A DNA stretch of 64,000 bases. Source: Centipeda artemidis DSM 19719 (GTDB taxonomy: Bacteria > Bacillota > Negativicutes > Selenomonadales > Selenomonadaceae). Positions within the stretch are counted from its first letter, which is position 1, and every line of letters begins with the position of its first letter. Under the pieces are notes generated by a model that had not been told where the DNA came from, ran no database searches, and saw only the letters and a list, made by a program, of their open reading frames with translations. Positions 7,468 through 41,275 of this stretch are shown piece after piece. Position numbers and translations under genes: made by a program. The stretch covers positions 1-64,000 of the forward strand of contig NZ_AUFU01000003.1 in the NCBI RefSeq assembly GCF_000426665.1. Direction: 5' to 3'.

Positions 7468-8721
7468 ATGCACATGGGAGACGATCAAACACAACCGGAA
7501 CAAGAGGTCATCGTTTCATCGACAGGGATTGCGAGCATCTATGCCGCCGCAAAACAGCTCGAGGGCATTGTGCGAAAGACCCCGCTCATATACAGCGAGT
7601 ACTTCTCCGATCTCTCCGGCAACGCCGCCTATCTCAAACTCGAAAACCTCCAAATCACCGGTGCATTCAAACTGCGCGGCGCTTACAACCGCATCAGCAT
7701 GCTCACCGAGGAGGAGCGGAGTCGCGGCGTCATCACCGCCTCGGCGGGCAATCATGCGCAGGGAGTCGCCTATGCCGCACAAAAACTCGGTGTTGCCGCC
7801 GTCATCTGTATGCCTGCCACGACACCGATTCTAAAGGTCGAGGCGACCCGCGCACTAGGTGCGACGGTTATTCTGCACGGCAATGGCTTTGACGACGCCT
7901 ACGCGCACAGTCTATCGCTCCAAAAGGAGAAAGGTTTCGTCTACATCCACCCGTTCAACGACCGCGATGTCATTGTTGGTCAAGGCACGATCGCACTCGA
8001 GATCATCGACGCACTCAAGGACGTGGATGCAATTCTTGTCCCTATCGGCGGCGGCGGTCTTGTCTCAGGCGTAGCCCTTGGAACAAAGCTCGTCAACCCG
8101 CATGTGAAGATCATCGGCGTCGAGCCGGAAAACGCCGCCTGCATGAAGGCGGCGCTCTCCGGAGGAAAGCTCATCACGCTCCCCTCCGCCGATACCGTTG
8201 CCGACGGCTGCGCTGTCAAGACGGCGGGCACGCTCACATTCGAGTTCTGTCGCCGTTATCTTGATGAGATCATCACCGTCTCCGAGATGGAGATCATGAG
8301 TGCCCTGCTCTCCCTCATTGAGAAGCACAAACTCATCGCCGAAGGCGCTGGCGTACTCCCCCTCGCCGCACTGCCAAAACTCAACATACGCGGCAAGAAG
8401 ATCGCCGTTCTCGTCAGCGGCGGCAACATAGACATCTCAACGATTTCCGCACTCATCTCCAAGGCACTCATCTCGCGCGGACGCGTCTTCCGCTTCGCCG
8501 TGCAGCTCCCGGACAAGCCCGGTCAGCTGCTCAACGTCGCACAGATCCTCACCGATTTGGACGCGAATGTCATTCGTCTCGACCACGATCAGAGCATGGT
8601 CACGGACAGCTTCAAAAAAGTGCAGCTCACCGTCACTGTCGAGGCGCACGGTCAGGAACACATCGACCACATCATTCGCGCCCTCGCAGAGAATGGATTT
8701 GAGATTAACAAGATTTATTGA
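7468..8721 (+). CDS. ilvA: threonine dehydratase (threonine ammonia-lyase) with C-terminal ACT domain
   Basis: It converts threonine to 2-oxobutyrate plus ammonia using PLP. The PLP-lysine motif is GAFKLRGA near residue 67, the phosphate loop is GGGGLVSG near 195, and SAGNHAQG is near 93. Residues about 345-417 form one ACT domain (FAVQLPDKPGQLLNVAQIL). The fold therefore matches the 400-aa TdcB-like/Firmicute IlvA form rather than the E. coli form with two ACT-like domains. Biosynthetic and catabolic roles cannot be separated. GGAGG lies 4 nt before the ATG. An ArsR gene follows 20 nt downstream. Confidence 0.9.
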   Translation: MHMGDDQTQPEQEVIVSSTGIASIYAAAKQLEGIVRKTPLIYSEYFSDLSGNAAYLKLENLQITGAFKLRGAYNRISMLTEEERSRGVITASAGNHAQGVAYAAQKLGVAAVICMPATTPILKVEATRALGATVILHGNGFDDAYAHSLSLQKEKGFVYIHPFNDRDVIVGQGTIALEIIDALKDVDAILVPIGGGGLVSGVALGTKLVNPHVKIIGVEPENAACMKAALSGGKLITLPSADTVADGCAVKTAGTLTFEFCRRYLDEIITVSEMEIMSALLSLIEKHKLIAEGAGVLPLAALPKLNIRGKKIAVLVSGGNIDISTISALISKALISRGRVFRFAVQLPDKPGQLLNVAQILTDLDANVIRLDHDQSMVTDSFKKVQLTVTVEAHGQEHIDHIIRALAENGFEINKIY

Positions 8722-8741
8722 TAAGAAAGGACTCCGGAAGA

Positions 8742-9056
8742 ATGACTTCTGCCGCCCCTCTGAAATGCATTGACCAAGACACCGCACAGCATCTCGCCGA
8801 CCTCTTTAAGACGCTCGGCGATCCCACACGCATCAAAATCATCTCATTGCTCGCTGCAGAGCAGGAACTGCGCGTCTATGACATCGCCGACGGTCTCGGC
8901 ATGGGACAATCCGCGATCTCACATCAGCTGCGCGTCCTGCGCAACGCACGCCTCGTCAAGTTCCGCCGCGACGGCAAGGAAGTTCTCTACTCCGTAGACG
9001 ACGAGCATGTGCTCAGCTTCCTGAGTCAAGGACTCGAACACGTCCGGCACGGATAA
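8742..9056 (+). CDS. ArsR/SmtB-family regulator with a CzrA-type zinc site
   Basis: A 104-aa winged-helix repressor. The recognition region is GMGQSAISHQLRVLRNARLV at about residues 56-75. In the last helix, DEHVLSFLSQGLEHVRH places Asp, His, His and His at offsets 0, 2, 13 and 16. That is exactly the alpha-5 Zn/Co site spacing of CzrA and SmtB. The alpha-3 ELCV(C/G)D cysteine site is absent (ELRVYDIA). The likely role is a zinc-responsive repressor. ATG 8742 is chosen because GAAAGGA lies about 10 nt upstream; the in-frame TTG at 8718 overlaps the ilvA stop. No metal transporter is adjacent, so its targets are unknown. Confidence 0.85.
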   Translation: MTSAAPLKCIDQDTAQHLADLFKTLGDPTRIKIISLLAAEQELRVYDIADGLGMGQSAISHQLRVLRNARLVKFRRDGKEVLYSVDDEHVLSFLSQGLEHVRHG

Positions 9057-10316: not shown

Positions 10317-11327
10317 TTATCTCGCAACCTCGTTGCGCAGCCGGTACGATCCGCTCACGATGTCTTCCCACCATTCCTGATGTTCCTCATACCAGCGAAT
10401 CGTGCTGCGGATGCCATCCTCGAACGAGGTCTCCGGCTGCCAGCCGAGATCGCGCCCGATCTTCGCGGGATCAATGGCATAGCGGCGATCATGCCCCTTG
10501 CGATCCTCGACATAGGAGATGAGCTCCTCCCCTTTGCCAAGTAAGCGAAGAATAGTACGAACGACGTCGATATTCGACCGCTCGTTATGACCGCCGACGT
10601 TGTAGATCTCCCCTGCGTTCCCCCGGCGTACGATGGCATCGATCGCCGCGCAGTGATCGTCCACATGGAGCCAATCGCGCACATTGAGACCGTCGCCGTA
10701 GACGGGCAGCTTCTCCCCGCGCAGCGCGCGGATGATCATGAGCGGGATCAGTTTCTCCGGGAACTGGAATGCACCGTAGTTGTTCGAGCAGCGAGAGATC
10801 GATACGGGTATGCCGTAGGTGCGCGCATATGCCTGCACGAGGAGATCCGCGCCCGCCTTTGAGGAGGAATACGGGCTCGATGTGTGCAGGGGTGTCTCCT
10901 CGGTAAAGAAGAGGTCAGGACGGTCGAGCGGCAGGTCACCGTAGACCTCGTCCGTCGAAACCTGATGATAGCGTTCGATGCCGTATTTGCGGCACGCGTC
11001 GAGCAGGATGCTCGTGCCGATGATATTTGTCTGCAAAAATATCTCAGGATTCTCTATGGAGCGATCCACATGCGACTCGGCGGCAAAATTAATCACAACG
11101 TCGGGCTTCTCGCGTTCAAACAGCGCATACACCGCCGCACGGTCGGCAATATCGCCACGCACAAAGGTGAAGTTCGGCGACCGCTTCGCCTCGTCGAGTG
11201 TCGCAATATTCCCCGCATAGGTCAGCACATCATAACAGACAATGCGATCCTCCGGATGCGTACGCAGCTCGTAGTAGATAAAATTCGCACCGATAAATCC
11301 GGCGCCGCCCGTGACGATGAGATTCAT
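10317..11327 (-). CDS. rfbB: dTDP-glucose 4,6-dehydratase
   Basis: It converts dTDP-glucose to dTDP-4-keto-6-deoxyglucose, a precursor of L-rhamnose and other deoxysugars of LPS or capsule. The short-chain dehydrogenase fold has GGAGFIGANF near residue 7, STDEVYGD near 125 (Thr-Asp-Glu catalytic residues) and YSSSK near 150. The length of 336 aa is normal. ATG 11327 has AAAGGAG upstream; the longer frame to 11408 lacks a site. No rfbA, rfbC or rfbD is adjacent, so the remaining pathway genes must lie elsewhere. Confidence 0.92.
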   Translation of the reverse strand: MNLIVTGGAGFIGANFIYYELRTHPEDRIVCYDVLTYAGNIATLDEAKRSPNFTFVRGDIADRAAVYALFEREKPDVVINFAAESHVDRSIENPEIFLQTNIIGTSILLDACRKYGIERYHQVSTDEVYGDLPLDRPDLFFTEETPLHTSSPYSSSKAGADLLVQAYARTYGIPVSISRCSNNYGAFQFPEKLIPLMIIRALRGEKLPVYGDGLNVRDWLHVDDHCAAIDAIVRRGNAGEIYNVGGHNERSNIDVVRTILRLLGKGEELISYVEDRKGHDRRYAIDPAKIGRDLGWQPETSFEDGIRSTIRWYEEHQEWWEDIVSGSYRLRNEVAR

Positions 11328-11413
11328 GAGATTTGCTCCTTTGGCGTTTATTCTATGAAAAATATTCGACAACAAGTCCTTTTTCCCTTTTTCAGTACTT
11401 CGGATCAAAATGA

Positions 11414-11443
11414 TTTACATTTTACAAACGCACGTGCTATACT
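11414..11443 (+). promoter_or_regulatory. putative promoter of the Y-family polymerase gene
   Basis: TTTACA, 18-nt spacer, TATACT. An alternative TATACA with a second TTTACA is offset by a few bases. I looked for a LexA box of the Bacillus type (GAACN4GTTC) and did not see one. Confidence 0.55.
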
Positions 11444-11465
11444 ATACAAAAAGGAGGAGCCCAAT

Positions 11466-12980
11466 GTGCAGCAACATACCTATATCGCGATCGATCTCAA
11501 ATCATTCTACGCTTCCGTCGAGTGTATTGAGCGCGGACTCAATCCCCTAACGACCAATCTCGTTGTCGCGGATGAAAGCCGTACGAGCAAAACCATCTGT
11601 CTCGCCGTCTCCCCCGCACTCAAGGCACACGGCATCGGAGGACGTCCGCGGCTCTTTGAGGTCATCCGCCAAATCGAACAAGTCAACCGGAGACGGCGTA
11701 TCCGCGCTCCCCACCGGAAACTCACAGGTGAAAGCACAGACGCAAATGAGCTCGCAAATCATCCGTCCCTCGCGGTGGCCTACCATATTGCGCCGCCGCG
11801 CATGGCGCTCTATATGGATTACAGTATGCGCATCTATGAGATTTATCTCCGGCGCATCGCCCCTGCCGACATTCATATCTATTCCATCGACGAAGTATTC
11901 ATCGACGCAACGAGTTATCTGGACACAGAGGGCACATCGGCACATGCGTTTACCATTCGTCTCATCCGTGATGTGCTCCGTGAAACCGGCATCACCGCCA
12001 CGGCGGGCATCGGCACAAATCTCTATCTTGCCAAAATTGCCATGGATATTGTAGCGAAGCATATTCCGCCCGATGCGGACGGCGTACGCATCGCAGAACT
12101 CGACGCATTGGAGTACCGCCGCCGCCTTTGGGCACATACGCCGCTCACTGATTTTTGGCGCATCGGCAGAGGAACGGCCAAGAAGCTTGAAGCTCACGGT
12201 CTCTATACCATGGGCGACATCGCACGCTGTTCTCTCGGCAATCCGCGGGAACCGCTTAACGAAGACCTGCTCTACCGGCTCTTCGGCATTCAAGCCGAAC
12301 TTCTCATCGACCATGCCTGGGGACATGAACCTGTCCGCATGGAGGACATCAAAAACTATCGCCCGAAATCTCGCAGCACTCATATGGGACAAGTTCTTCA
12401 AAATCCTTACAGTGCGGATAAAGCACGCCTGATTGTCTGGGAAATGGCAGATGCGCTGTCCCTTGAGCTCACGGAGAAGAAGCTGACCACCGACCGCCTT
12501 GAACTGACCGTCGGCTATGACATCGAGTGTCTGACACGTCCCGAAATCAGCACCGCATACCGGGGACGTATCCGTCTCGACCGCTACGGTCGCCGTGTTC
12601 CGTGGCCGGCACACGGCAGCGCGCTCATCGAACGAAGTGTTTCTACGCATACCATAACGAAGGCGCTCACCTCCCTCTACGACGAGATTGTAAATCCCGC
12701 GCTCCTCATCCGCCGCCTTAGCATCTCCGCACAACATCTCATACGTGCGGACGAGATTCCGCCGACCGAGCAGATTGACCTGTTTTCCGCAGAAGAAACC
12801 GCGCAGGCGGCACTCACAGAAGCGGAGAAAAAATCTCACGCGAAAAATCATGCTCTACAGGAAGCCATTGTCGCTATCAAAAAGAACTATGGAAAGAATG
12901 CGATTCTGCGCGGCGCGAATCTCCTTGAAGACGCTACCGCACGGCTGCGCAACAGCCAAATCGGCGGACATAAAGCATAA
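11466..12980 (+). CDS. Y-family translesion DNA polymerase (UmuC/YqjW type)
   Basis: It synthesises DNA past lesions. The catalytic motifs are AIDLKSFYASVE at the N-terminus (first Asp) and IYSIDEVFIDAT near residue 140 (Asp-Glu). GIGTNLYLAKIAMD is the thumb lead-in, then a little-finger domain. The 504-aa length is longer than DinB (about 350-410) and fits the UvrX/YqjW/UmuC-like group of Firmicutes. The start is a GTG with AAGGAGGAG about 5-9 nt upstream; an ATG two bases earlier is out of frame, and the frame upstream of 11466 is antisense to rfbB. The YolD-like small gene follows. Confidence 0.9.
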   Translation: MQQHTYIAIDLKSFYASVECIERGLNPLTTNLVVADESRTSKTICLAVSPALKAHGIGGRPRLFEVIRQIEQVNRRRRIRAPHRKLTGESTDANELANHPSLAVAYHIAPPRMALYMDYSMRIYEIYLRRIAPADIHIYSIDEVFIDATSYLDTEGTSAHAFTIRLIRDVLRETGITATAGIGTNLYLAKIAMDIVAKHIPPDADGVRIAELDALEYRRRLWAHTPLTDFWRIGRGTAKKLEAHGLYTMGDIARCSLGNPREPLNEDLLYRLFGIQAELLIDHAWGHEPVRMEDIKNYRPKSRSTHMGQVLQNPYSADKARLIVWEMADALSLELTEKKLTTDRLELTVGYDIECLTRPEISTAYRGRIRLDRYGRRVPWPAHGSALIERSVSTHTITKALTSLYDEIVNPALLIRRLSISAQHLIRADEIPPTEQIDLFSAEETAQAALTEAEKKSHAKNHALQEAIVAIKKNYGKNAILRGANLLEDATARLRNSQIGGHKA

Positions 12981-31056: not shown

Positions 31057-32739
31057 TTGCGTAAAGAATGGATTGTAATTATTTTTGCCCTCGTCTGCGC
31101 CGTTCTCTTCTTCCGATACATTCTGCACTCCCGCCCGGAGGGCATTCTCTATCCCCCCGTCCTCTCTGTGCAGGAGGGCGATCGCCCTATTCTCCTCGTA
31201 CCGCTCGACTCACGCCCCCCGTGTACGGATTTCGTTGTGAACGGCGGAAAAATAGTCAGCCGCGAGATTCTCCTCCCTCCGTCTGAAATCATGGACTACT
31301 ACACACAGCCCGGCAGCACGGCTGATATGCGCGCATGGCTCGCCGCACACATAGAGGATTCCTCCGCCGTCATACTCTCCGTCGACCAACTCCTCTCGGG
31401 GGGGCTCATCGCCGCACGTGAGGCTCATATTTCCAGGGAGGATATCGAGGGACTTGCCTCATATCTGCGCGCTCTGCACGGCGCACATCCTGATGTCCCC
31501 CTCCACGCCTTTTATATCCTCCCGCGCGCCGCGGCGCAGGACAGCATCGACGGGCTGCGCGCGCGCCGCGCTCTCCTCTCCTACGCGCGCCTCCTCGGGC
31601 GCATGGGCGAAGGAGTTCCCGTAGATGCCGACGAATTATCGCGTCTGCATGAGGACTTTACCAACGACGAATTAGAAAAATATCTCGCCCACTTCGAAGA
31701 GAGCACGGCGCTTGCCGCCATGCTCATTGAGCTTACGGAGGAGGGGGTGCTCGCGCGGCTCGTGCTCGGTCAGGATGACGGCGAACCGTATTCCGTGGGC
31801 AATCTAAAAAAGCAGAAACTGAGCGCCCTGCTTTCTGCGAAACATATTCCCGCCGACCGTGCCGTCATTGTGCATGGTGCCGACGAAATCGCACTCACCA
31901 TGCTCGCGCGGCTCGCCGTCGACGAGATGCGCGAGCGTGGTACGGATGCGCCGCGCATCGCCCTCCGCTATGCTGCGCCGCCCATGGCGAATGCCGTATT
32001 CCCCTTCATGGCAGTCTCCAATGACGAAACGGCGCGCGAAAAGATCGCCCTGCTCGGATGCGCGGCGGACGACTCAGGCGCTGCGGACATCACGCTCTTC
32101 ATCTCCGCGGGCGACCGCAGCGCGGATACGCTCGGCACGCGAGCTCCCGCCGCCGCATACATCAAAGGGCAGCTTGCAGCAAGAAAGCATATCGCGCTTG
32201 TCGACCTCTCCCGCAGGTTCAGCGCTGAGGAGACACTGCTCCCCATTCTCGTTGAGCATAATGTCCCCGTAAACGCTCTCAGCGCCTATGCGGGCTGGAA
32301 CACGGCGAGCAATGCCATCGGTACGGCGCTCTCGGAGGCAGTACTCTATCACTGCGCGCTCGCACAGGCACAGATGCAGGAAGAACGTGAAGCGGCAACC
32401 TATGCCAACGTCACCTTCCTCACAGGGCGCATCGCGGAGGACGAATTTTATCTCAAGGAGGGCATCGACCGCATCAATGGGACACTGCATACTGCAGGTT
32501 TTACGAACACCGCCGATCTCGACCTAGAGAAAAATGCGCGCTGGGCGAACGATCTGCTCGCCCGTGATCTCACGCGCCGCATCGCCGCTTACGAATCGAC
32601 CGCCGCATTCCGCGCCCCGTTCCGCGTCGGAAATACGACGTTCCAATTACACCGCTCAAATGCCGCGGCGTACTTCCCGTGGCCGCGCACCTTCGAGATC
32701 CGAATGCATACCGCACCGGAGATGACGATCGCGAGATAA
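31057..32739 (+). CDS. DUF4127 family protein, membrane-anchored
   Basis: A 560-aa protein with an N-terminal anchor or signal (about residues 4-22) and an extracytoplasmic body starting near 45 (ILLVPLDSRPPCTDFV, the DUF4127 opening). IVHGADEIALTMLARL, AYAGWNTASNAIGTALS and SAVILSVDQLLSGGLIA are typical of the family. The start is TTG with AGAGGAGG upstream. The function is unknown. The gene is monocistronic between a divergent promoter and a bidirectional terminator. Confidence 0.88.
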   Translation: MRKEWIVIIFALVCAVLFFRYILHSRPEGILYPPVLSVQEGDRPILLVPLDSRPPCTDFVVNGGKIVSREILLPPSEIMDYYTQPGSTADMRAWLAAHIEDSSAVILSVDQLLSGGLIAAREAHISREDIEGLASYLRALHGAHPDVPLHAFYILPRAAAQDSIDGLRARRALLSYARLLGRMGEGVPVDADELSRLHEDFTNDELEKYLAHFEESTALAAMLIELTEEGVLARLVLGQDDGEPYSVGNLKKQKLSALLSAKHIPADRAVIVHGADEIALTMLARLAVDEMRERGTDAPRIALRYAAPPMANAVFPFMAVSNDETAREKIALLGCAADDSGAADITLFISAGDRSADTLGTRAPAAAYIKGQLAARKHIALVDLSRRFSAEETLLPILVEHNVPVNALSAYAGWNTASNAIGTALSEAVLYHCALAQAQMQEEREAATYANVTFLTGRIAEDEFYLKEGIDRINGTLHTAGFTNTADLDLEKNARWANDLLARDLTRRIAAYESTAAFRAPFRVGNTTFQLHRSNAAAYFPWPRTFEIRMHTAPEMTIAR

Positions 32740-32777
32740 AAGTGGAGCCGCTGCACGAACGCAGCAGCTCCACTTTT
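32738..32777. terminator. bidirectional terminator between the DUF4127 gene and the ABC ATPase
   Basis: An 11-bp perfect stem (32738-32748 with 32767-32777), extended inside by GCTGC/GCAGC, with A and T flanks. Confidence 0.9.
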
Positions 32778-32780
32778 CTA

Positions 32781-33548
32781 CTACAGTAATGTCAGCAGCC
32801 CGCGCTGCGTCTCACCGTCGACCTGCGCCTCAAGCACACGGCAGTCGATGTCAAAAAAGCGGCGCAGATTTTCCTCCGTGAGGATGGTCTGCGTCTCGCC
32901 GAATACATATGCGCCGCGGCGCATCATGAGGCTTTTATCTGATATTTTCAGCGCATTCTCGGGGGAGTGCGTATTCATAACAATCGTCATGTTCCGCTCG
33001 CTTGCCAGTTTTTTGAGCAGGCGCAGTACGATGAGCTGATTGTGGAAGTCGAGATGCGCTTCCGGCTCATCAAGGATCATGATCTTCGGTTCGGTCGCAA
33101 GCGCGCGCCCGATGTAGACCATCTGCAGCTGGCCGCCGCTGAGTTCGGTCGCACGCCGATCCGCGAGTGCCGAGGCGCCGACCAGCGCAAGCAGTTCCGT
33201 CACGCGGCGGCGATCCTCCTCGCTCGGCGTCCGAAAGAGTCCGATGCGCCGCGCCCGCCCCATCATGACCATCTCAAAGACGGTATAGGGAAACGCGGGG
33301 GCATGACTCTGCGGCACATACCCGATCTTGTCGCTGACGGCGTCGGGTACGGGAGGTTCCCCGGCCACCAAACAGCCGCCGCGCGTCCACGGCAGGATGC
33401 CGAGCAGACAGCGGAGGAATGTGGTCTTGCCGATGCCGTTGCGTCCGAGAATCGTCAGTATCTCGCCTGCGGCGAGGGAGAAGTTCAGCCCGGAAAAGAG
33501 TTCTGTTTTGCCGTCGTAAGAAAATGCGGCGTCCTTCACCTCGATCAT
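32781..33548 (-). CDS. ABC transporter ATPase, FecE/BtuD family
   Basis: The 255-aa ATPase of an iron-chelate, heme or cobalamin importer. Walker A is GRNGIGKTT near residue 36, Q-loop VPQSHAP near 80, signature LSGGQLQM near 134, and Walker B IMILDEPEAHLD near 155. Note EAHLD where most transporters have TSHLD. The true start is ATG 33548, overlapping the permease stop as ATGA; the longer upstream frame is antisense-like. It forms one unit with the permease, binding protein and TonB-dependent receptor. Confidence 0.92.
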   Translation of the reverse strand: MIEVKDAAFSYDGKTELFSGLNFSLAAGEILTILGRNGIGKTTFLRCLLGILPWTRGGCLVAGEPPVPDAVSDKIGYVPQSHAPAFPYTVFEMVMMGRARRIGLFRTPSEEDRRRVTELLALVGASALADRRATELSGGQLQMVYIGRALATEPKIMILDEPEAHLDFHNQLIVLRLLKKLASERNMTIVMNTHSPENALKISDKSLMMRRGAYVFGETQTILTEENLRRFFDIDCRVLEAQVDGETQRGLLTLL

Positions 33549-34558
33549 GACCAATCCCCCATTTTTTCCCGCGTACGCTTGAGGAGTACGGCAAAGAAGG
33601 GTGCGCCGAGCAGTGCGGTGAGGATGCCGATCGGCAGCTCCGCTGCGAGCAGGCTGCGCGCACAGATGTCGACGAGTGCAAGAAAGATCGCGCCCACGAA
33701 GCAGGTTGCCGGCAGCAGCCGCTGATGATCGACGCCGACCATCCGGCGGCACATATGCGGAATGACGAGTCCGACCCAGCCGACGATGCCGCAGCTGGTC
33801 ACGGAGAGCGCCGTGAGAACCGTCGCCGCGACGATGGCAATGTTGCGGATGCGCGCGGGATTCACCCCGAGGCTGCGTGCCTCCTCCTCGCCGAGCGAGA
33901 GGATGTTGATGCGCCAGCGGATCGCGATCAGGAGCGCGCCTGCGGCAATCATGGGCAGTCCGATGATCTGGAGTTTATCAAAGTCCGCCTTCCCAAGACT
34001 GCCCATGAGCCAGTAGGTGATGGCGGGCAGCTTGTCGTAGGGGTCGGCCGAGTATTTCACCAGCGAGATGAGCGCAGAGAAAATCGACGAGATGATGATG
34101 CCCGAAAGCACGAGCGACATCATCGAGACAGCCCCGCGGCTGCGCGAGAAGTAGTACGCAAGCCCGACACTCGCCATGCCGCAGGCGAAGGCGATGACCG
34201 ACGTCCCCATGCCCGTCCCCCAGAGCAGGATGCCGAGCACCGCACCGAAACCCGCGCCGCTGCTGACGCCGAGCACATCGGGACTGACGAGCGGATTGCG
34301 GAAGATCCCCTGATATACCGCACCCGAGAGCGAAAGCCCCGCACCGACGAGCATGGCGAGGAGCGTACGCGGCAGGCGCAGTTCCAGTACAACGGTCGAT
34401 GCCATATCCGTCCCTGCATTGCCTCCGGCCGCACGCACGAGAATGTCAAAGACGGCCCCCGGCTCGATCGCAAAGCGCCCCGCCGCAAGCGAAAGAAAGA
34501 ATACGGCGATGAGCAGTACCGTCATGATCGTCCAGAGAGCTGCATTGCTTTGTTTCAT
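33545..34558 (-). CDS. ABC transporter permease, FecCD family
   Basis: An inner-membrane permease of about 337 aa with ten predicted helices. LRLPRTLLAMLVGAGLSLSG near residue 60, the GAVYQGIFRNPLVSPDVLGV stretch and LGVNPARIRN near 230 (coupling-helix region) are FecCD signatures. GTG 34570, overlapping the binding-protein stop, is an alternative start; ATG 34558 was chosen by codon. Only one permease gene is present, so it probably works as a homodimer, as BtuC does. Confidence 0.92.
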   Translation of the reverse strand: MKQSNAALWTIMTVLLIAVFFLSLAAGRFAIEPGAVFDILVRAAGGNAGTDMASTVVLELRLPRTLLAMLVGAGLSLSGAVYQGIFRNPLVSPDVLGVSSGAGFGAVLGILLWGTGMGTSVIAFACGMASVGLAYYFSRSRGAVSMMSLVLSGIIISSIFSALISLVKYSADPYDKLPAITYWLMGSLGKADFDKLQIIGLPMIAAGALLIAIRWRINILSLGEEEARSLGVNPARIRNIAIVAATVLTALSVTSCGIVGWVGLVIPHMCRRMVGVDHQRLLPATCFVGAIFLALVDICARSLLAAELPIGILTALLGAPFFAVLLKRTREKMGDWS

Positions 34559-34566
34559 AGGGCAGC

Positions 34567-35631
34567 TCACTCGTGCAGAATCATCTTGAGGTCGGCATCC
34601 GTCAGCGTGTATGAGAAGAATTTCTCATAGAAGCTGCGCAGATCGTCCGTCAGACGGTAGTCGCCGAACACATCCGGATGCAGTTTCTGCGCGACCCACT
34701 TGATCATCAGCGGCGTCTCGACGCAGGGCGCATCCCAGCGATAGAGGCCATTCGGCGCCTTGTAGACACGTCCCTCGCGCACCGCCTTGATGTTCTTCCA
34801 GTTCTGCCCCTCCAGTTTATCCTCGAAGAGATCGGCTGGCTGAATCGGATCAAAATTGCTGAGGATGATGACATCAGGATCCCACGCGGCAATCTGCTCC
34901 ATCGTGACGGGCGTCCACTGCACCTGCACGTCCTTTGCAGGGTTCGTGCCGCCCGCCGTCTCGATCATCATCGTGTTGACGCTTCCGCCCGCTGCAACCT
35001 TCAGATCACGATCGCGCAGGTAGAGCACCTTCGGCTTCGCCTTGCCTGCAAGCGCCGCTTTTTTCCCGTCGAAATACGCCATCGTGTCCTGCTGAAACCC
35101 CACCAGATCCTCGGCGCGCTGCTCCTTGCCGAGCACCTGCCCGAGGACGCGGATGCCCTGCTGGACGTCCTCCATTGTGCCGTATTTCAGCGCAATCGTT
35201 GGAACCTTCAGCTTCTCGAGCTGCGCGATCTCATCCTCCTGATAGTTCCAGACGATGATGGCGCTCGGGTTCAGCTTGCCAAGCTCCTCCATGTGGAGGG
35301 AGAAATCCTGCCCGACGAAGTCTGTTGCGGCATTCGCCATCCCCGGCGCAAGCACCTTGAGCATGGACTTCTCATACGACGCCTTCGCCGACGGGTGCAT
35401 GCCCGCAATGCGATCCCCCGAGCCGTCCACCGCAAAGACAACGGATGCCCACGGGATCGGTACGACGGCCAGGCTCTTGACCTCTCCCGGCAAATGTACC
35501 TCACGCCCGGTCGTATCCGTCACGACCCGCTCCGCCTTGGGCGCGGGTGTCTGCTGCTGCCCGCATCCCGCGAGCACAGCGCAGAGGAGCATCAGCGCTG
35601 CAAGAAAACCAATTGGCAAACGATGTTTCAT
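34567..35631 (-). CDS. periplasmic substrate-binding lipoprotein of the FecB/BtuF class
   Basis: A 354-aa lipoprotein with signal and lipobox LCAVLAGCG (Cys near residue 23). Residues about 35-310 are the two-lobed helical-backbone fold (VVTDTTGREVHLPGEVKSLA opening). ATG 35631 is preferred over 35637 because GGAGG then sits 6 nt upstream. The ligand is unknown; iron-siderophore, heme, corrinoid and molybdate-type chelates are all handled by this fold. It lies between the receptor and the permease. Confidence 0.9.
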   Translation of the reverse strand: MKHRLPIGFLAALMLLCAVLAGCGQQQTPAPKAERVVTDTTGREVHLPGEVKSLAVVPIPWASVVFAVDGSGDRIAGMHPSAKASYEKSMLKVLAPGMANAATDFVGQDFSLHMEELGKLNPSAIIVWNYQEDEIAQLEKLKVPTIALKYGTMEDVQQGIRVLGQVLGKEQRAEDLVGFQQDTMAYFDGKKAALAGKAKPKVLYLRDRDLKVAAGGSVNTMMIETAGGTNPAKDVQVQWTPVTMEQIAAWDPDVIILSNFDPIQPADLFEDKLEGQNWKNIKAVREGRVYKAPNGLYRWDAPCVETPLMIKWVAQKLHPDVFGDYRLTDDLRSFYEKFFSYTLTDADLKMILHE

Positions 35632-35730
35632 GATCATCCTCCGAATCCGAATAAATTAGAATACGGGACCGCACCCCGCAGGCATATTCGCCTCAGAAAC
35701 GGTCCCGTCTGTATCTTCTGTGCTGCGCCG

Positions 35731-37944
35731 TCAGAGATCAAACGTCGCGGAGAGCATAAACGTCCGCGGCATCGAGAGCAGCAGCTTGCTCCCCTGTCCC
35801 GGCTGCAGAATCCAGTAGCTGCGGTTGAATACGTTGTAGACGGATGCCTGCACGGAGACCGGCGTCGTCCCGATCTTCGTCCGGTAGTTTGCAAAGAGAT
35901 CAAATACCGCCGAGGACGGCACAGAGAGTTCGCGGCGGCCGGTGCCGATGATCGTGCCGCGCGAGACGTAGTTCAGACGCCCCGTGATGGTCCAGTCCGC
36001 ATTCGGCATATACTCAACCCCCGCAACGGCGCTCCACGGCGCCGAGCTGTCCGTCGGCAGGCCGTCGTTTACGCCGCCCTGCGTCCGCTGCTGGCGCGCA
36101 TGGAGGTACTGAATCCCGCCGAATACGTTCCACTTCGGCGCGGCTGCGCCCGTGACGCTGAGATCGACGCCGCGGTAGCGGTTCTCGCCGTTGAGGCGGC
36201 GGAACTTCGTCCCCGGAACGGCAGGATTCGCGACATCGACATAGTTCGGCTGGTTCACGTCGAAATAGGCGAGCGCGGCATACATGCTGCCGAACTTGTA
36301 CTTTACGCCGACTTCCTTCTGCGTGACCTTTACTGCGGGGAGAATCGCCCCCTCGTTGACATAGCCGCTGCCGACCACCTGCCCGCGTGTCGTGGCTTTT
36401 GCATACGCGCCGTAGACCGAGAGGCGGTCCGTCGGCGCATAGGTCACGCCGAACGTGGGCGCATACTGCGTATCCTTTGTCTCGCTGCCTGCAGCTGCGC
36501 CGCGGTAGTTTCCGTGGCGGCGCGTGACGGCCGCGAGCAGATTCCACTTCCCGATCTTTACATTGTCCATCAGGTTGATGCTCGTATCCATCTCCTGATA
36601 CTGGAACTTCTGGCCAAGGCTGTCGGAGATGTCGTAGCTGTAGATCGAGGGCCGATAGATGATGCCGGAGTAGATATTGCCCGACACCTGCGCCCCCGCC
36701 CCATCGCGCCGCGTATTGTTGTACTGGACGCGCCACGAGCGGTCCACGGCGAGCGTCACGTCATGCTCCGCTGCGCCCGTGCGGAATTTATGGTTTACCC
36801 CGATCTGTCCGTAGCGGCTCTTGAGATAGAAATACTGCGACCAGACGCGGTTGTCGCGCAGGTTGCCGTCCCCATCGATCGTAACCTGAGTCCAGTAGAT
36901 GAAGCGGCGGTTCGTCATGTCGTTCGTACCCGCGTTCAGGAACCACTTCGTATGCGGATTGATCTTCTGCTCGTGGTTGAGCGTGATCTGATAGCCGTCC
37001 CAGTCGCTGTGCATGAGGTTCGGATCATCGTAGCTGCGGCTCGCATCGGGCGCATTCGGCACCTGCCGCGCCGTGCGCTGAATCTGGAAGCGCCGCTCCG
37101 TCCCGCGCAGATGATCCTTGTAATAGCCGCCGAAAAGATTCGTCGTGGTCTTCGGTGTCTCGCGGCTCACATCGACAAAGAGGTTGCTCTTTCTCCGTCC
37201 CGCACCGCTGACGGAGAAGTTCCCCTCGCTGTGCTCGCCGTAGACACGCACGCCGAACGTACCGTCACCGAGACCGCTGCGGTTCACATCGATATAGCTG
37301 CCGTAGTGGCCGTAGCCGCCCATCGTCTGCCGGTAGCGCGTGAAGTCGCCCTTCTCCGGGCGTTTCGTATAGAGATACACGGAGACCGGCTGACCCCCGT
37401 CCGGACCATTGTACGACTGCACCGAGCCGGACAGCGTCGCTGCAGGCCCGACCATCACATCGGCACGTCCAATCGTATTCGTCACGGGACCCGCTGCCAT
37501 GATGAAGAAGCCGGGCACATTGTTGAGGTACATCGCCGAACCGTTTGCAAGCATCCCGCGCGCGGAAAAATCCGTCTTAATGAGCGAAGTACCCACGCGC
37601 AGCGACGGCACATTGGCGAGTGCCTGATTGATGTCGCCCGCAGGCGCAACAAACGTGTCAAAATTCTTCGTCGTGAGGCTCTGCGCCGTATAGGGCACCT
37701 GCATCACATCCCGGTCGCCGAGGAGTCCGAAATGTGTCTCCTGCGCCTGAAATCCGCCCGGCAAAACGAGCCGTCCGTCCGTATCGGCAAGTGCACGCGT
37801 CCCCGTCACCGTAACTGCGGGCAGTTCATAGGTATCGACTTCCGCCTGCATCCTATCGCTCTGTATCTCAGGCTGTTCCGCACTTGCGATTCCGCTGCCC
37901 GCAAGCCATAGCGTAAGAAGAGATGCAATTTTTTTCTTTGTCAT
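35731..37944 (-). CDS. TonB-dependent outer-membrane receptor
   Basis: A 737-aa receptor. The signal peptide is about residues 1-22 (cleaved after ASA). A TonB-box-like ELPAVTVTG lies near 40-48. The plug is about 70-190 (VPYTAQSLTTKNF, INQALANVPSLRVG) and the 22-strand barrel runs to the end (SMPRTFMLSATFDL). The plug text resembles the siderophore-receptor subfamily. It shows an outer membrane and gives the importer below it a way in. Its own promoter lies upstream. Confidence 0.93.
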   Translation of the reverse strand: MTKKKIASLLTLWLAGSGIASAEQPEIQSDRMQAEVDTYELPAVTVTGTRALADTDGRLVLPGGFQAQETHFGLLGDRDVMQVPYTAQSLTTKNFDTFVAPAGDINQALANVPSLRVGTSLIKTDFSARGMLANGSAMYLNNVPGFFIMAAGPVTNTIGRADVMVGPAATLSGSVQSYNGPDGGQPVSVYLYTKRPEKGDFTRYRQTMGGYGHYGSYIDVNRSGLGDGTFGVRVYGEHSEGNFSVSGAGRRKSNLFVDVSRETPKTTTNLFGGYYKDHLRGTERRFQIQRTARQVPNAPDASRSYDDPNLMHSDWDGYQITLNHEQKINPHTKWFLNAGTNDMTNRRFIYWTQVTIDGDGNLRDNRVWSQYFYLKSRYGQIGVNHKFRTGAAEHDVTLAVDRSWRVQYNNTRRDGAGAQVSGNIYSGIIYRPSIYSYDISDSLGQKFQYQEMDTSINLMDNVKIGKWNLLAAVTRRHGNYRGAAAGSETKDTQYAPTFGVTYAPTDRLSVYGAYAKATTRGQVVGSGYVNEGAILPAVKVTQKEVGVKYKFGSMYAALAYFDVNQPNYVDVANPAVPGTKFRRLNGENRYRGVDLSVTGAAAPKWNVFGGIQYLHARQQRTQGGVNDGLPTDSSAPWSAVAGVEYMPNADWTITGRLNYVSRGTIIGTGRRELSVPSSAVFDLFANYRTKIGTTPVSVQASVYNVFNRSYWILQPGQGSKLLLSMPRTFMLSATFDL

Positions 37945-37985
37945 GTTCTAATCCCCTTTGATGTCGTCAACTAGAATTGTTTCAT

Positions 37986-38014
37986 ACTTTATCATAATCA
38001 CTTGATTAGAACAA
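37986..38014 (-). promoter_or_regulatory. promoter of the TonB-dependent receptor gene with Fur-like box
   Basis: Minus strand: TTGTTC, 17-nt spacer, TAAAGT. A stretch at 37987-38005 matches the 19-bp E. coli Fur consensus at 11 positions, with a good core (ATCATAATCA). A 9-bp inverted repeat GTTCTAATC (37945-37953) / GATTAGAAC (38004-38012) spans the promoter and the start region. Confidence 0.6.
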
Positions 38015-38032
38015 TCGAAAAGATTAAAATCA

Positions 38033-39664
38033 TTATTTCAGTTTTTTTGAAGTATCCCCCCCTCCCTGTATGCCAAGAAATGCGGCGAGCGCCCTCCGGA
38101 ACGCCGCACCCAAGACGCCCCCGTCCGCGCACACAGCATCTCTGCCGGAGAGGTACCCGGTCGGTAGCGGCAACAGGCGTTTCTCGCCGAACACGATACA
38201 GAATGCAGGATCAGCGACCACGATATCAGCCGCATTCCACAGCGGCTCTAATTCTTCACGGGTTTGAAAGCACAATATTTCCTCACGCCCTGCCGCACGG
38301 CGATAGAGTTCCGCCGTCTCATCCGTCCACGCGTACGCCGCGCACCGAATGTCACAATACCCGTAAGCGCGCAGGACGCACACGATGGCACGCGAGGCAA
38401 TCGGATCGCCGATGAGGAGAATACGTTCGCTGTTCCGCCCATATGATTTACTCCCTGCGGTCTCCTGCGCCGCATTCGCCCGGTACGTCCTGCCGAGCAT
38501 CTTTGCCGCCGTCCGCTCCCATGCCGCTTTGCCCTGCGCACCGAGCGGCAGCGTTTGCAGCACAGGAATATCGTAAGTGTCATGCAGCCAGTCTGCCGCA
38601 GGCAGTCCCGCAGCTGATACGCACCAAGCAAGCACGGGGCGTTCCGAAAGAACATCTCGCCCCGCTATATGCATCCTATATCCGCGCTTTGCAAAAAAAT
38701 CTTCCGCCGCTGCAAACTGTGCGCACGCACCGACAAGCATCTCGCTCCAACCGAGCACATACACACAGGATGATGTCGTCCCCCAATCTGCCGCAGCCTC
38801 CCATACCAAGGACAGAGACGCCGCCGCAATCCCCGTGACGGCATCCTGAAAGCCGCTCGTCGGGAAAAACTTCCCCTTGCAGCCGCAGGACGACAAATTT
38901 TCTAAGATAAATTCCTCCTGCATCCCCATGAATGCAGGCACGGGTGAGCCGAGAAGGTTCAGCTTTTGGAATGCGGCGCCCTCCGCAAGTTCTTCCACCT
39001 GCGTGCGTATCGTCTCTTCCATGCCGAAGATATAGTCCTCCGCCGCGGGAAGCGCGGCATAGACGTCCCGCCGTTCCCGCGTCATATCCATACGCGCGAT
39101 GGGGCTGCGGCAGCCCGACGGTGTGACAAGCACATTCGCCGTATCCGCTGCGCGCAGGAAATCCGCTGCGCCCGCAATATCGCTCATGGGCGGCGGCAGA
39201 GATATATCCGCCTCGATGCACGTCTCCTCCGGCGGCAGGCTGCGCAGTATATCCTCCGCCGTCTCGTGCGGCATGGCGTCCGCCTTGGCAAGAGGTCCGC
39301 GGAAAAAACAGCGCACGACGCATCCCGTCTCCGCCGAAAGGCGCGCCTCTATATCCGCGAAGTCAAGCCGCACGAGGATATCGAGGCAGGAGAGATAGAT
39401 GACGATCACACGCACACCGGGGAGATTTCCCGCCGCGCGCACCACATCCCGCAGCTTTTCCTCCATCGTACCGACGACATAGTCCTCCTCGCGCAGGATA
39501 ACATAACGCAGCTGCGAAAGCACGCCGCGCAGCGCGGCTCTTTGATAGAGGCTGCGCAGACAGATCAGCGCTCCCGGGATGACGAGAACGAGATCGCGGC
39601 GCCGGCACAGAAGATCCATACTCGTATCAAACGACGTGATTTCCTCGGCAGCTATCTGTTCCAT
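38033..39664 (-). CDS. nitrogenase-component-1-like protein with duplicated N-terminal module
   Basis: About 543 aa, resembling the nitrogenase/protochlorophyllide-reductase component 1 superfamily. Counting from the upstream Met at 39670, one module has Cys37 (PGALICLR), EEDYVVGTMEEKL at 61-73 and Cys95 (IYLSCLDIL). A second has Cys187 (PSGCRSPI), AEDYIFGMEETI at 210-221 and GSPVPAFMG at 241-249, where the second Cys is replaced. A Rossmann-type remainder follows (QDAVTGIAAASLSLV, ERILLIGDPIASRAI). ATG 39664 has GAGGAG 8 nt upstream. No NifH-like ATPase or second subunit is encoded nearby, so nitrogen fixation is not implied. The role is unknown; it may process the imported chelate. Confidence 0.72.
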   Translation of the reverse strand: MEQIAAEEITSFDTSMDLLCRRRDLVLVIPGALICLRSLYQRAALRGVLSQLRYVILREEDYVVGTMEEKLRDVVRAAGNLPGVRVIVIYLSCLDILVRLDFADIEARLSAETGCVVRCFFRGPLAKADAMPHETAEDILRSLPPEETCIEADISLPPPMSDIAGAADFLRAADTANVLVTPSGCRSPIARMDMTRERRDVYAALPAAEDYIFGMEETIRTQVEELAEGAAFQKLNLLGSPVPAFMGMQEEFILENLSSCGCKGKFFPTSGFQDAVTGIAAASLSLVWEAAADWGTTSSCVYVLGWSEMLVGACAQFAAAEDFFAKRGYRMHIAGRDVLSERPVLAWCVSAAGLPAADWLHDTYDIPVLQTLPLGAQGKAAWERTAAKMLGRTYRANAAQETAGSKSYGRNSERILLIGDPIASRAIVCVLRAYGYCDIRCAAYAWTDETAELYRRAAGREEILCFQTREELEPLWNAADIVVADPAFCIVFGEKRLLPLPTGYLSGRDAVCADGGVLGAAFRRALAAFLGIQGGGDTSKKLK

Positions 39665-39680
39665 ACGCATCTCTCCTCAA

Positions 39681-39715
39681 TAAAAAAAGCACCCCGGCGC
39701 ATCGCTGCGCCGAGA
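39681..39715 (-). terminator. hairpin terminator between lysR and the nitrogenase-like gene
   Basis: A 10-bp stem with two G-T pairs (39692-39701 with 39706-39715) and tetraloop, then GTGC and seven T on the minus strand. The T run ends 18 nt before the next start codon, leaving no room for another promoter. Confidence 0.75.
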
Positions 39716-39729
39716 CCTCCGGTCAACCG

Positions 39730-40629
39730 CTAGCAACTGTCCGCCGTGTCCTTATACTCCGACAAAACGTCGAAAAAGAGTGTCATCGCGGGGCTGTGCC
39801 ATTTATTTTTTCGTGTGCCGCAAAAGGATCGGACGTGTATCTTTTCCGACGGAACGACGGCAAGCGCCTTGCGCGTTACGCGATCCTGCACGACGAAATC
39901 CGGCAGGAGCGCGACGCCCATGTCGTTTTCGATAAGGTTGATGATGGTCTGCGTGCTGCGCAGCTCGATGGTATTGTCAAATGTGATCTCTTTTTTGCTC
40001 AGATAATCGTCGAGCAGGGCGCGAATCTCTCCCGGCATCGGCGTCGAAACGCGCGTGATGTCCGCGACGGTTTGTCCGCTCGTCTTCATATCGGGGCAGC
40101 GCATGGCAACCGACGGCGACGCGTAAAAATGCGCCGTGCTGCTCTCAAATGCCCGAAAATCGAGTTGTTCCCGGTCTTTCTCATGCACGCTGTAGACAAA
40201 CCCGATGTCGACGGTATCCTCGTGCAGCGCCGTCACGACATCGCGGCTCGTCAGCGAACGCAGGCGCAGATCCACGTGGGGCGCCTGTCTGTGCAGGCGC
40301 TTGAGGAGTGCGGGCAGGCGAAAACAGAGCATGGATTCGGGCGCGCCGATGGTAAGCGCCCCGCGATAATCCGAAATGTCGTATTGAAAATTTTGGATCT
40401 TGTGCGCGGCTTCGAGCACCTCGTCCACATACGGAACAAGAGCCTCCCCCGCCTGCGTTAAAATCATGCGGCGGCCGCTCTTTTCAAAGATCCGCACGCC
40501 CGCAGCCTCCTCGAGCTGCGCAACGTGAAAGGTGATCGTGGACGGGGTATAGTTGAGCCGCCGAGCTGCCTTTGAAAAACTGCCCGTGCGGATAATGGTC
40601 TTAAATGTCGTCAGGATTTTGAGTTCCAT
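39730..40629 (-). CDS. LysR-family transcriptional regulator
   Basis: A 299-aa regulator with an N-terminal winged HTH (about residues 15-60; GSFSKAARRLNYTPSTITFH) and a LysR substrate-binding domain (about 90-290). It is on the same strand and directly upstream of the nitrogenase-like gene. LysR genes are more often divergent from their targets, so autoregulated co-expression is possible. Its effector is not evident. Confidence 0.9.
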   Translation of the reverse strand: MELKILTTFKTIIRTGSFSKAARRLNYTPSTITFHVAQLEEAAGVRIFEKSGRRMILTQAGEALVPYVDEVLEAAHKIQNFQYDISDYRGALTIGAPESMLCFRLPALLKRLHRQAPHVDLRLRSLTSRDVVTALHEDTVDIGFVYSVHEKDREQLDFRAFESSTAHFYASPSVAMRCPDMKTSGQTVADITRVSTPMPGEIRALLDDYLSKKEITFDNTIELRSTQTIINLIENDMGVALLPDFVVQDRVTRKALAVVPSEKIHVRSFCGTRKNKWHSPAMTLFFDVLSEYKDTADSC

Positions 40630-40741
40630 GCGTTTTCCTCATAATATACGCGCAATATACGGCAGATTCGGATGGAAAAGGCTGCAACTCATCTTTTCAT
40701 ATGTATTTTCTATCTCTAGCGTGACGGCTTTCCCTGCGGGT

Positions 40742-41275
40742 TTATTTCTTTCTGCGCAGTTCCTCGAGACGCGCGACGGTATCGGTGTCCAGCCGCTCAT
40801 GCACCTCGATGCGTCCTGCGGGCTGCGTATGCGTGCCGATGTATTCCGCCTTCATCAGTTTCTTTGCTTTTTTGACGGCGCGGCGCAGTTCGGGCGAGGG
40901 GATGCGGTAAGCGCCCGCGCCGAGGATAACGCTCTGCTCGGCGCCGTCGGAGGTGACGACGTGAACTTCACGCCCATCGCGTACCGCACGATAGGCGAGG
41001 CGCTCGATGCAGCTGTCCGCCGTCTCGCCCGCGCCGGTGTAAATCACGCGCAGGCGTCGTCCGAGCTCGATGACGCGCTCTTCATCTTCAGTAAAGAGTG
41101 CATCAAAGACAATCGTCATTTCGTAGTTTTCAAATGCACCGTATTCGGCGAGAATGCGAACGAGCACGTCGCGCGCCTCGTCGAGGTTGCCGCGCAGCCG
41201 GATCAGCTCCGGCCACGCGTTGATGACATTGTAGCCGTCGACGATATAGTATTCGCATTCCCTTATCCTAGCCAT
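40742..41275 (-). CDS. YacP-like NYN-domain ribonuclease
   Basis: A 177-aa protein with a PIN/NYN fold: EYYIVDGYNVINAWPEL near residue 8 with the first acidic residue, TIVFDAL near 55, and VVTSDGAEQ near 106. YacP (Rae1) of Bacillus cleaves mRNA in the ribosomal A site. ATG 41275 overlaps the rlmB stop by 8 nt. The cysS-mrnC-rlmB-yacP order, with thyX inserted here, is conserved in Firmicutes. Confidence 0.88.
   Translation of the reverse strand: MARIRECEYYIVDGYNVINAWPELIRLRGNLDEARDVLVRILAEYGAFENYEMTIVFDALFTEDEERVIELGRRLRVIYTGAGETADSCIERLAYRAVRDGREVHVVTSDGAEQSVILGAGAYRIPSPELRRAVKKAKKLMKAEYIGTHTQPAGRIEVHERLDTDTVARLEELRRKK

Follow-up and report, generated by a model that had tools for sequence, protein, structure and literature searches.

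The first 64,000 nucleotides of contig NZ_AUFU01000003.1 of Centipeda artemidis DSM 19719 (the window) encode a relative of nitrogenase component 1 that is very probably an alpha-beta fusion protein, in which the alpha-type chain is cut to its domain I and the beta-type chain is complete. The assignment comes from sequence comparison and structure modelling, since the profiles of relatives, a domain tree and structure searches agree on an alpha-beta fusion that lacks alpha domains II and III. In the literature, as far as its text was available, component 1 is made of alpha and beta chains (separate, or fused as nifE-nifN) or of a CfbD homodimer, and searches of the open-licence PMC literature turned up, among the matches listed, no report of an alpha cut to domain I and joined to a beta. 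As an overall explanation, a single-chain component-1 relative built of alpha domain I and a whole beta chain, and serving as a minimal reductase on an imported ligand, is favoured with some reserve.

38033..39664, minus strand: coding sequence of the predicted nitrogenase component-1-like alpha(domain I)-beta fusion, 543 amino acids (aa) (PF00148; full-length orthologues)
39215..39664, minus strand: residues 1-150, predicted alpha-type domain I alone, alpha domains II and III absent (hhalign, tree, AlphaFold2)
38036..39214, minus strand: residues 151-543, predicted complete beta-type chain (hhalign, structure search)

The gene is one open frame of 543 codons and a stop, read from an ATG at 39664. 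Its longest open reading frame (ORF) has 545 aa, from an upstream in-frame start at 39670; the ATG at 39664 is taken as the start, in agreement with the starts taken for the orthologues, and residues are numbered on the 543-aa form. An earlier reading of this DNA (the first-pass annotation) used the 545-aa form, and its Cys37, Cys95, Cys187 and Ser242 are Cys35, Cys93, Cys185 and Ser240 here. The protein scores 33.2 bits on PF00148 (nitrogenase component 1 type oxidoreductase; gathering cut-off 28.6), with the best stretch at residues 170-403, and an NCBIfam scan gave no model near its cut-off. Searched alone, the protein finds at best a weak BchN match among solved structures (residues 21-124, E 0.08) and, in a single-sequence scan of the genome contigs, no match. 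The genome holds four other PF00148 matches, arranged as two adjacent pairs, and one true NifH, which lies beside one of these pairs; no alpha domains II/III that would complete the trimmed alpha were seen elsewhere in the genome.

The low scores (Pfam only 33 bits, no solved structure by sequence below E 0.08) speak for a chance resemblance, in which one nitrogenase-like chain carries an unrelated N-terminal domain, as does the direct comparison of the N-terminal (N) and C-terminal (C) modules, which is without significance. For that comparison hhalign pairs residues 16-119 with 19-116 of the C module at a probability of 1.2%; the first-pass annotation had proposed aligning residues 20-130 with 170-280, and the register of that alignment holds, its significance does not. 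The internal repeat was therefore set aside as sole evidence. Compared through relatives, the N-module profile, built on residues 1-150 of 10 sequences, has a 97.6% match to the alpha family (21 sequences; E 4e-12) and a 30% match to the beta family (24 sequences). For the C-module profile the values are 100% with the beta family (E 7e-46 over 368 columns) and 97.4% with the alpha family (E 1e-11), and the alpha and beta families match each other at 99.1% (E 1e-18). The alpha and beta rows are a selection from the fetched loci (numbered L; genomes are numbered G), from which the alphas of, e.g., L043, L046, L097 and L099 were left out, and the beta row of L100 is a partial frame. One alignment leaves out the copies of G019 (in-frame stop) and G005 (truncated), and another leaves out L056, from the same contig as that of G019. 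L051-L054 and L057 duplicate L031, L033-L035 and L038, and each is counted once.

In a domain-I tree built by maximum likelihood (66 rows over 119 columns), alpha and beta separate. All 10 N modules fall on the alpha side, in a 31-row branch (99/99), and all 10 C modules on the beta side, in a 33-row branch (100/99). The N modules have the short L087 alpha as their sister (100/100), and the alpha and beta of L102, the most distant rows, join outside both main branches. The tree rests on few columns, has long branches that meet for the C modules of L038 and L055 and an odd composition in L038, and was made without L124-L128, which were obtained later. Hhalign through relatives and the tree identify one module as alpha-type and the other as beta-type. 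The first-pass annotation spoke of an apparent tandem duplication; the two modules are ancient paralogues that have been joined, not a recent duplication of this kind.

The predicted fold gives the same picture. AlphaFold2 models the whole fusion (7 sequences) with a mean predicted local distance difference test (pLDDT) of 81.6 and a predicted template modelling score (pTM) of 0.86; beta and alpha elements alternate in one stretch through residues 15-142, with the larger part after it. Modelled alone, residues 1-154 reach a pLDDT of 84.2 and a pTM of 0.82. Against solved structures, the first 12 rows for the whole model are BchB-type chains of dark-operative protochlorophyllide oxidoreductase (DPOR), the top one with Z 22.2, a root-mean-square deviation (rmsd) of 4.0 and 381 aligned residues, followed mostly by NifN- and beta-type chains; the alignments begin at residue 53 in most top rows and at 151-161 in others. 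The N-module model matches NifE, BchN, NifD and MarD-type chains (best Z 12.9, rmsd 2.7, 127 aligned), with NifE on top and BchN and NifD chains tied within 1 Z; the best Foldseek match is BchN (E 3.4e-5). By chain letter, nearly all N-module matches listed are alpha-type; the beta-type exceptions include 9i0f_B and, in the Foldseek list (17 rows reaching E 0.001 or better), 1qgu_B and 4wes_B. CfbD is not among the structural matches listed, which carries no weight either way. The structure prediction that the first-pass annotation had suggested thus bore it out, with an N part like alpha-type chains (NifE/BchN/NifD) and a whole nearest to BchB-type chains rather than one domain I.

An unrelated extra N-terminal domain is ruled out by the hhalign match to alpha (E 4e-12), the place of the N module inside the alpha branch (99/99) and the structural match to alpha-type chains (Z 12.9). 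Furthermore, in the homologue L087 an alpha and a beta of this kind are encoded by two separate adjacent genes, and chance resemblance is hardly credible. Equally, the outcome that the first-pass annotation had named as fatal to its idea (a single domain I, with the second match due to chance) did not occur, as both modules are placed by relatives, tree and fold.

The conserved cysteines fit the same assignment. The layout and spacings described in the first-pass annotation are exact: Cys35 to Gly65 is 30 residues, Gly65 to Cys93 is 28, Cys185 to Gly214 is 29 and Gly214 to Ser240 is 26, with EEDYVVG beginning at residue 59 and AEDYIFG at 208. The counts below refer to 13 fused proteins, namely the first 10 and three more, one of them truncated (L126).

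39560..39562, minus strand: Cys35 codon, position of NifD Cys88 (Cys in 13/13 fused proteins and 21/21 alphas)
39386..39388, minus strand: Cys93 codon, position of NifD Cys154 (Cys in 13/13 fused proteins and 21/21 alphas)
39110..39112, minus strand: Cys185 codon, position of NifK Cys95 (Cys in 13/13 fused proteins and 23/24 betas, the exception being L102)
38945..38947, minus strand: Ser240 codon, position of NifK Cys153 (Ser in 11 and Thr in 2 of 13 fused proteins)
39470..39490, minus strand: EEDYVVG motif of the alpha-type module (aligns with the E-x-D-x-x-x-G-like motif of unfused alphas)
39023..39043, minus strand: AEDYIFG motif of the beta-type module (aligns with motifs such as REIDAVLG in unfused betas)

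The invariance of Cys35, Cys93 and Cys185, proposed as a check, holds in all 13 fused proteins. The layout of Cys, E-D-x-x-x-G and Cys or Ser is nitrogenase-wide and recurs in two other component-1 frames of the genome, where the same columns read 'VVGC ... ESDVLYGG ... SGC' and 'PRAC ... EDEAVFGG ... SSC'. At position 240, the unfused betas have Ser (11), Thr (11) or Ala (2 of 24) and no row has Cys. The residue is Ser, Thr or Ala in all 34 beta-side rows first aligned (10 fused and 24 unfused), which rules out simple decay and overturns the view that the second module had lost its second Cys. The available text of Dos Santos et al. 2012 (PMC3464626) describes an uncharacterised clade with aC88 and aC154 in alpha and bC95 alone in beta, in which a non-Cys residue may complete the cluster; the equivalence of Cys35 to NifD Cys88 is taken from the alignments and this published pattern. 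The missing Cys is thus old and shared, the same pattern being found in all 34 rows and in that clade. The fusion has this Group IV pattern (Cys at the aC88, aC154 and bC95 positions, none at bC153). It does not have the six P-cluster Cys of NifDK/AnfDK/VnfDK, as only three Cys are conserved, nor the cofactor ligands Cys275 and His442 that the same source names for alpha, as the alpha residues past domain I are absent.

The trimmed alpha is under constraint. The frame is open in 8/8 g1/g20 loci, between which the C modules are 45-85% identical. For the six closest pairs of these orthologues, the ratio of nonsynonymous to synonymous substitution rates (dN/dS) is about 0.11-0.25 in the N module and 0.22-0.30 in the C module; dN is below dS in both modules wherever dS is defined, dS being saturated in many other pairs and undefined in one. 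Conservation is higher in the N module than in the C module in 28/28 g1/g20 pairs and in 59/66 pairs of the 12 full-length members (truncated L126 excluded), and 32 positions are invariant over these 12 members from Selenomonas-type, Anaerovibrio and Lachnospiraceae-type loci. The trimmed alpha looks like working sequence because its dN/dS is low and it is the better conserved module. Accordingly, the 'fused or decayed alpha-beta pair' of the first-pass annotation is upheld as fused (by profiles, tree, structure searches and the split homologue L087) and not as decayed. A rotting alpha module does not fit, as the alpha is the better conserved half in 59/66 pairs and is the only part reduced, cut after domain I.

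Damaged and patchy copies are what a decaying pseudogene would leave: the Anaerovibrio gene is broken in 2/3 genomes, with an in-frame stop in L039 (G019) and a truncation beside an incomplete permease in L040 (G005), and is intact in L038 (G008); L126 ends early (317 aa); and the gene is present in 7/14 genomes of the genus. The open frames of the 8/8 g1/g20 loci at 45-85% C-module identity, the dN/dS of about 0.11-0.30 in the six closest pairs and the 32 invariant positions make decay of the gene very improbable.

The relatives can be arranged as a graded series, whose order from (a) to (d) may be read as an evolutionary history: (a) a full alpha of about 420-440 aa and a beta of about 380-400 aa in neighbouring genes (e.g., L088, L091, L094, L098 and L128), at loci that also carry a NifH-like gene and a FecCD-type importer; (b) L087, with a NifH-like protein (279 aa), an alpha of 273 aa and a beta of 405 aa, then binding protein, permease and ATPase; (c) a NifH-like gene directly 5' of the fused protein, with an importer, in L055 (551 aa), L124 (595 aa) and L125 (546 aa), of which L055 is a Lachnospiraceae metagenome-assembled genome and the others are from genomes of the same family; and (d) the window, its near relatives L031-L037 and Anaerovibrio L038, with the fused protein and no NifH-like gene found alongside. 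Named records in series (d) are Selenomonas sp. F0473, S. flueggei, S. noxia, Selenomonas sp. oral taxon 892 and Anaerovibrio. The L087 alpha seems to stop before the last domain, because its PF00148 match covers positions 10-244 of 399; a second short alpha of this kind was not found in 4 genomes of the class of G273. L126 (8752-9705) resembles series (c) but its fused protein ends at 317 aa, inside the beta part; the NifH-like and importer genes of this locus are open, and the early end may be a real shortening, a frameshift or an assembly error. Whole alpha-beta fusions occur in the relatives L048 (835 aa), L049 (791 aa), L101 and L127. The trimmed fusion looks independent of L048/L049, because the tree puts the trimmed alpha beside the separate L087 alpha.

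The fusion lies in a row of genes on the same strand, in the order LysR, fusion, TonB receptor, binding protein, FecCD permease and ATPase, and its neighbours are:

39730..40629, minus strand: LysR-type regulator, upstream neighbour (PF00126 and PF03466; in 8/8 g1/g20 loci)
35731..37944, minus strand: TonB-dependent receptor, siderophore type (Pfam; in 7/8 g1/g20 loci, not found in L033)
34567..35637, minus strand: substrate-binding protein of a FecCD-type importer (PF01497)
33545..34570, minus strand: FecCD/BtuC-type permease (PF01032, 304.8 bits)
32781..33548, minus strand: importer ATPase, ATG at 33548, longest ORF from GTG at 33752 (PF00005)

The binding protein, permease and ATPase genes adjoining the fusion make up a FecCD-type import system. 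At the 15 loci with a fused form or its remnant (the window, L031-L040, L055 and L124-L126), binding protein and permease are present in 15/15 and the ATPase in 14/15, the exception being L040, where the ATPase was not found and the permease is incomplete. Neighbour calls are longest non-overlapping ORFs, which masked some neighbours, and were rechecked by tblastn except for L124-L128. The TonB receptor scores 183.5 bits on TIGR01783, under the cut-off of 223.5, and its nearest solved structures are BauA and FemA, a likeness that suggests a siderophore ligand. The nearest solved structures of the binding protein are 4ovk and then HI_1472 (E 1e-22), the latter a molybdate/tungstate binder; the imported ligand might therefore be an oxyanion and not a siderophore. 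No cobalamin riboswitch backs a B12 ligand, since Rfam at the gathering threshold gave no match in 32500-41000. A strong terminator-like hairpin (11 pairs and a T run) lies at 39691-39716 on the minus strand, between the LysR gene and the fusion; it is only about 27 bases 5' of the fusion start codon and may be a leaky terminator or an attenuator. In L055, the importer ATPase and NifH-like genes are separated by a 233-aa gene (8257-8955) with a match to the C-terminal part of PF03599, the CO dehydrogenase/acetyl-CoA synthase delta subunit model (E 1.7e-11).

NifH-like genes adjoin 4/15 of these loci, which are the 4/4 Lachnospiraceae-type ones (L055 and L124-L126), and another lies beside the alpha and beta of L087. 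By tblastn, none was found near the fusion in the examined stretches of the window and L031-L040. A true NifH is present in all 14 genomes of the genus of the window and in the g20 carrier G140; none was found in the Anaerovibrio genomes G008, G019 and G005 (best PF00142 match E 4e-15, in G008).

For the fusion as a minimal reductase, the following mechanism is proposed. The two domain-I modules would pack face to face like an alpha-beta pair and hold one [4Fe-4S] cluster, with Cys35 and Cys93 from the alpha side, Cys185 from the beta side and a fourth ligand other than Cys. On the model of DPOR and nitrogenase, a NifH-type ATPase dimer would dock across both modules and feed electrons to the cluster. 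The substrate may be the compound that the adjoining importer takes up, such as a siderophore- or cofactor-like metal chelate, and its reduction would take place in the beta-chain cavity and the space vacated by alpha domains II/III. The Lachnospiraceae-type relatives would use the NifH-like gene of their own operon, and the Selenomonas-type carriers the NifH of the nif cluster. Alpha domain I carries half of the NifH docking face, and keeping this domain alone makes sense because the cluster ligands and that half of the face lie there. Action on the imported ligand, argued by analogy, is given slightly less than an even chance, and NifH as the electron donor in the Selenomonas type is more doubtful. 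It is improbable that the protein is an ATP-driven anaerobic counterpart of the ferric-siderophore reductases, acting on an imported metal chelate and borrowing NifH in Selenomonas-type bacteria; were this true, the machinery of nitrogen fixation would also serve metal acquisition.

Besides the direct comparison of the two modules, several findings weigh against this account. The fused form is rare, and separate alpha and beta chains are the rule: intact fused copies occur in 9/189 genomes of the family of the window (7/14 in the genus, the g20 genome and G008). Of 397 genomes of the Lachnospiraceae-type family, 54 have a match, which runs over the full length in 3 (G576, G815 and G755) and is shortened in G709; in an even sample of the phylum (398 genomes), 26 match the family profile, with full-length copies only in G000, G032 and G008. 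The presence of NifH has no discriminating power, as it is found in 14/14 genomes of the genus and the fused gene in 7/14. G008 has an intact copy and no true NifH, therefore the dependence on NifH is not universal or this copy is a relic. The clues to the ligand diverge, with a receptor of siderophore type and a binding protein nearest to 4ovk (no ligand named) and then to HI_1472.

Two rivals to the reductase would give the protein another function. If it were a non-redox binding protein, the Selenomonas/Anaerovibrio form would be a cytosolic receptor or chaperone left after loss of the NifH-like partner, with the Cys binding metal. The absence of NifH-like genes from the examined stretches of the window and L031-L040, and the intact copy of G008, where no true NifH was found, are consistent with this. 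However, the same Cys are kept as in the forms with a NifH-like partner (13/13), every g1/g20 carrier genome has NifH, and domain I, with its NifH docking face, is the better conserved half (59/66 pairs), which leaves this alternative rather unlikely. The second rival is a metallocluster scaffold like NifEN, which would hold or build a metal cluster and couple metal import to cofactor assembly. Among the alpha-type structural matches NifE ranks first, though BchN and NifD chains lie within 1 Z of it, the host has two further component-1 pairs and nifH, and a scaffold is proposed for nitrogenase-like genes beside ABC transporters in the available text of Dos Santos et al. 2012 (PMC3464626). By contrast, three Cys alone are conserved in the fusion, the neighbours of the window gene are an importer, a receptor and a regulator with no nif genes, and 7/14 genomes of the genus have NifH without the fused gene. 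Alpha domains II/III, which help to cage the cofactor in NifD and NifE, are also absent, and a scaffold is considered unlikely.

The fusion resembles DPOR (BchN-BchB) in structure: the whole model is nearest BchB-type chains (Z 22.2) and the N part is near BchN. The single [4Fe-4S] cluster at the alpha-beta interface of DPOR, held by three Cys and one Asp, is the expected analogue of the cluster predicted for the fusion. DPOR has two full chains, whereas the fusion is a single chain with a trimmed alpha, and it scores 12.7 of 324 bits and 10.4 of 509 bits on the NCBIfam BchN and BchB models. CfbD of F430 biosynthesis likewise forms component 1 from one gene product with a NifH-type partner; in the available literature text, CfbD is a homodimer of one chain, whereas the fusion has alpha and beta in one chain. 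The CfbD model TIGR03282 is not listed for the fusion at E up to 1, the unfused relatives L087, L088 and L048 reach 22-31 bits of the 268 needed, and on the CfbC model, which has a cut-off of 402 bits, the NifH-like proteins reach 277.6 (L055) and 323.6 (L087). Fused NifEN and the full-length fused alpha-beta proteins (L048, L049) also hold alpha and beta in one polypeptide but keep the whole alpha, whereas the window fusion is without roughly 280 alpha residues. With 543 aa and an alpha part of 150 aa, it is unlike fused NifEN (NF011047), in which both chains are complete (about 900 aa). Fused nifE-nifN is noted in 29 assemblies of Cyanobacteria and Nitrospira in the available part of PMC8399215.

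A close published parallel is the uncharacterised Group IV nitrogenase-like (NifHEN-like) clade (Methanocorpusculum labreanum, Desulfitobacterium hafniense and Coprococcus catus), which, in the available text of PMC3464626, has the same Cys pattern, with two alpha Cys and one beta Cys. ABC transporters adjoin some nitrogenase-like genes there, those of M. labreanum included. In that clade, to which the fusion is likened by the published pattern, alpha and beta are separate full-length proteins, whereas the fusion has alpha domain I only, joined to beta, and an adjoining NifH-like gene was not found at the window locus, with NifH elsewhere in the genome. As far as this text goes, the parent clade, its Cys pattern and the ABC transporter link are already published, and the trimmed fusion would be the new part. 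A conserved domain-I-only alpha would show which part of alpha is indispensable (the cluster ligands and the docking face for the Fe protein) and that alpha domains II/III are dispensable. The fusion would offer a small natural system in which to study how NifH passes electrons to a component-1 cluster, and the importer genes linked to it would give a handle on the substrate of a large uncharacterised nitrogenase-like clade.

A second nitrogenase-like set is observed directly 5' of hypF in L043, L045-L050, L095, L099, L101, L103 and L127. It consists of a NifH-like gene (none was found in L049, which is a contig end) and genes for alpha and beta, the last two fused in L048, L049, L101 and L127. 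The hypD gene is present at 10/12 of these loci and not in L050 and L127, which end nearby, and a HypE-type (AIRS) gene is present in L047, L095, L101 and L103. Similarly, the available text of PMC3464626 notes NifHEN-like genes linked to hydrogenase maturation in Coprococcus catus. Another alpha-beta type lies near HydF, the [FeFe]-hydrogenase maturation GTPase (L089:10951-13262, L093:5582-6793 and 11160-12206, and L095:6001-7203); in L089 and L093, a radical SAM gene and a FecCD importer are close by as well. The HydF linkage could reflect a scaffold role in hydrogenase cofactor assembly.

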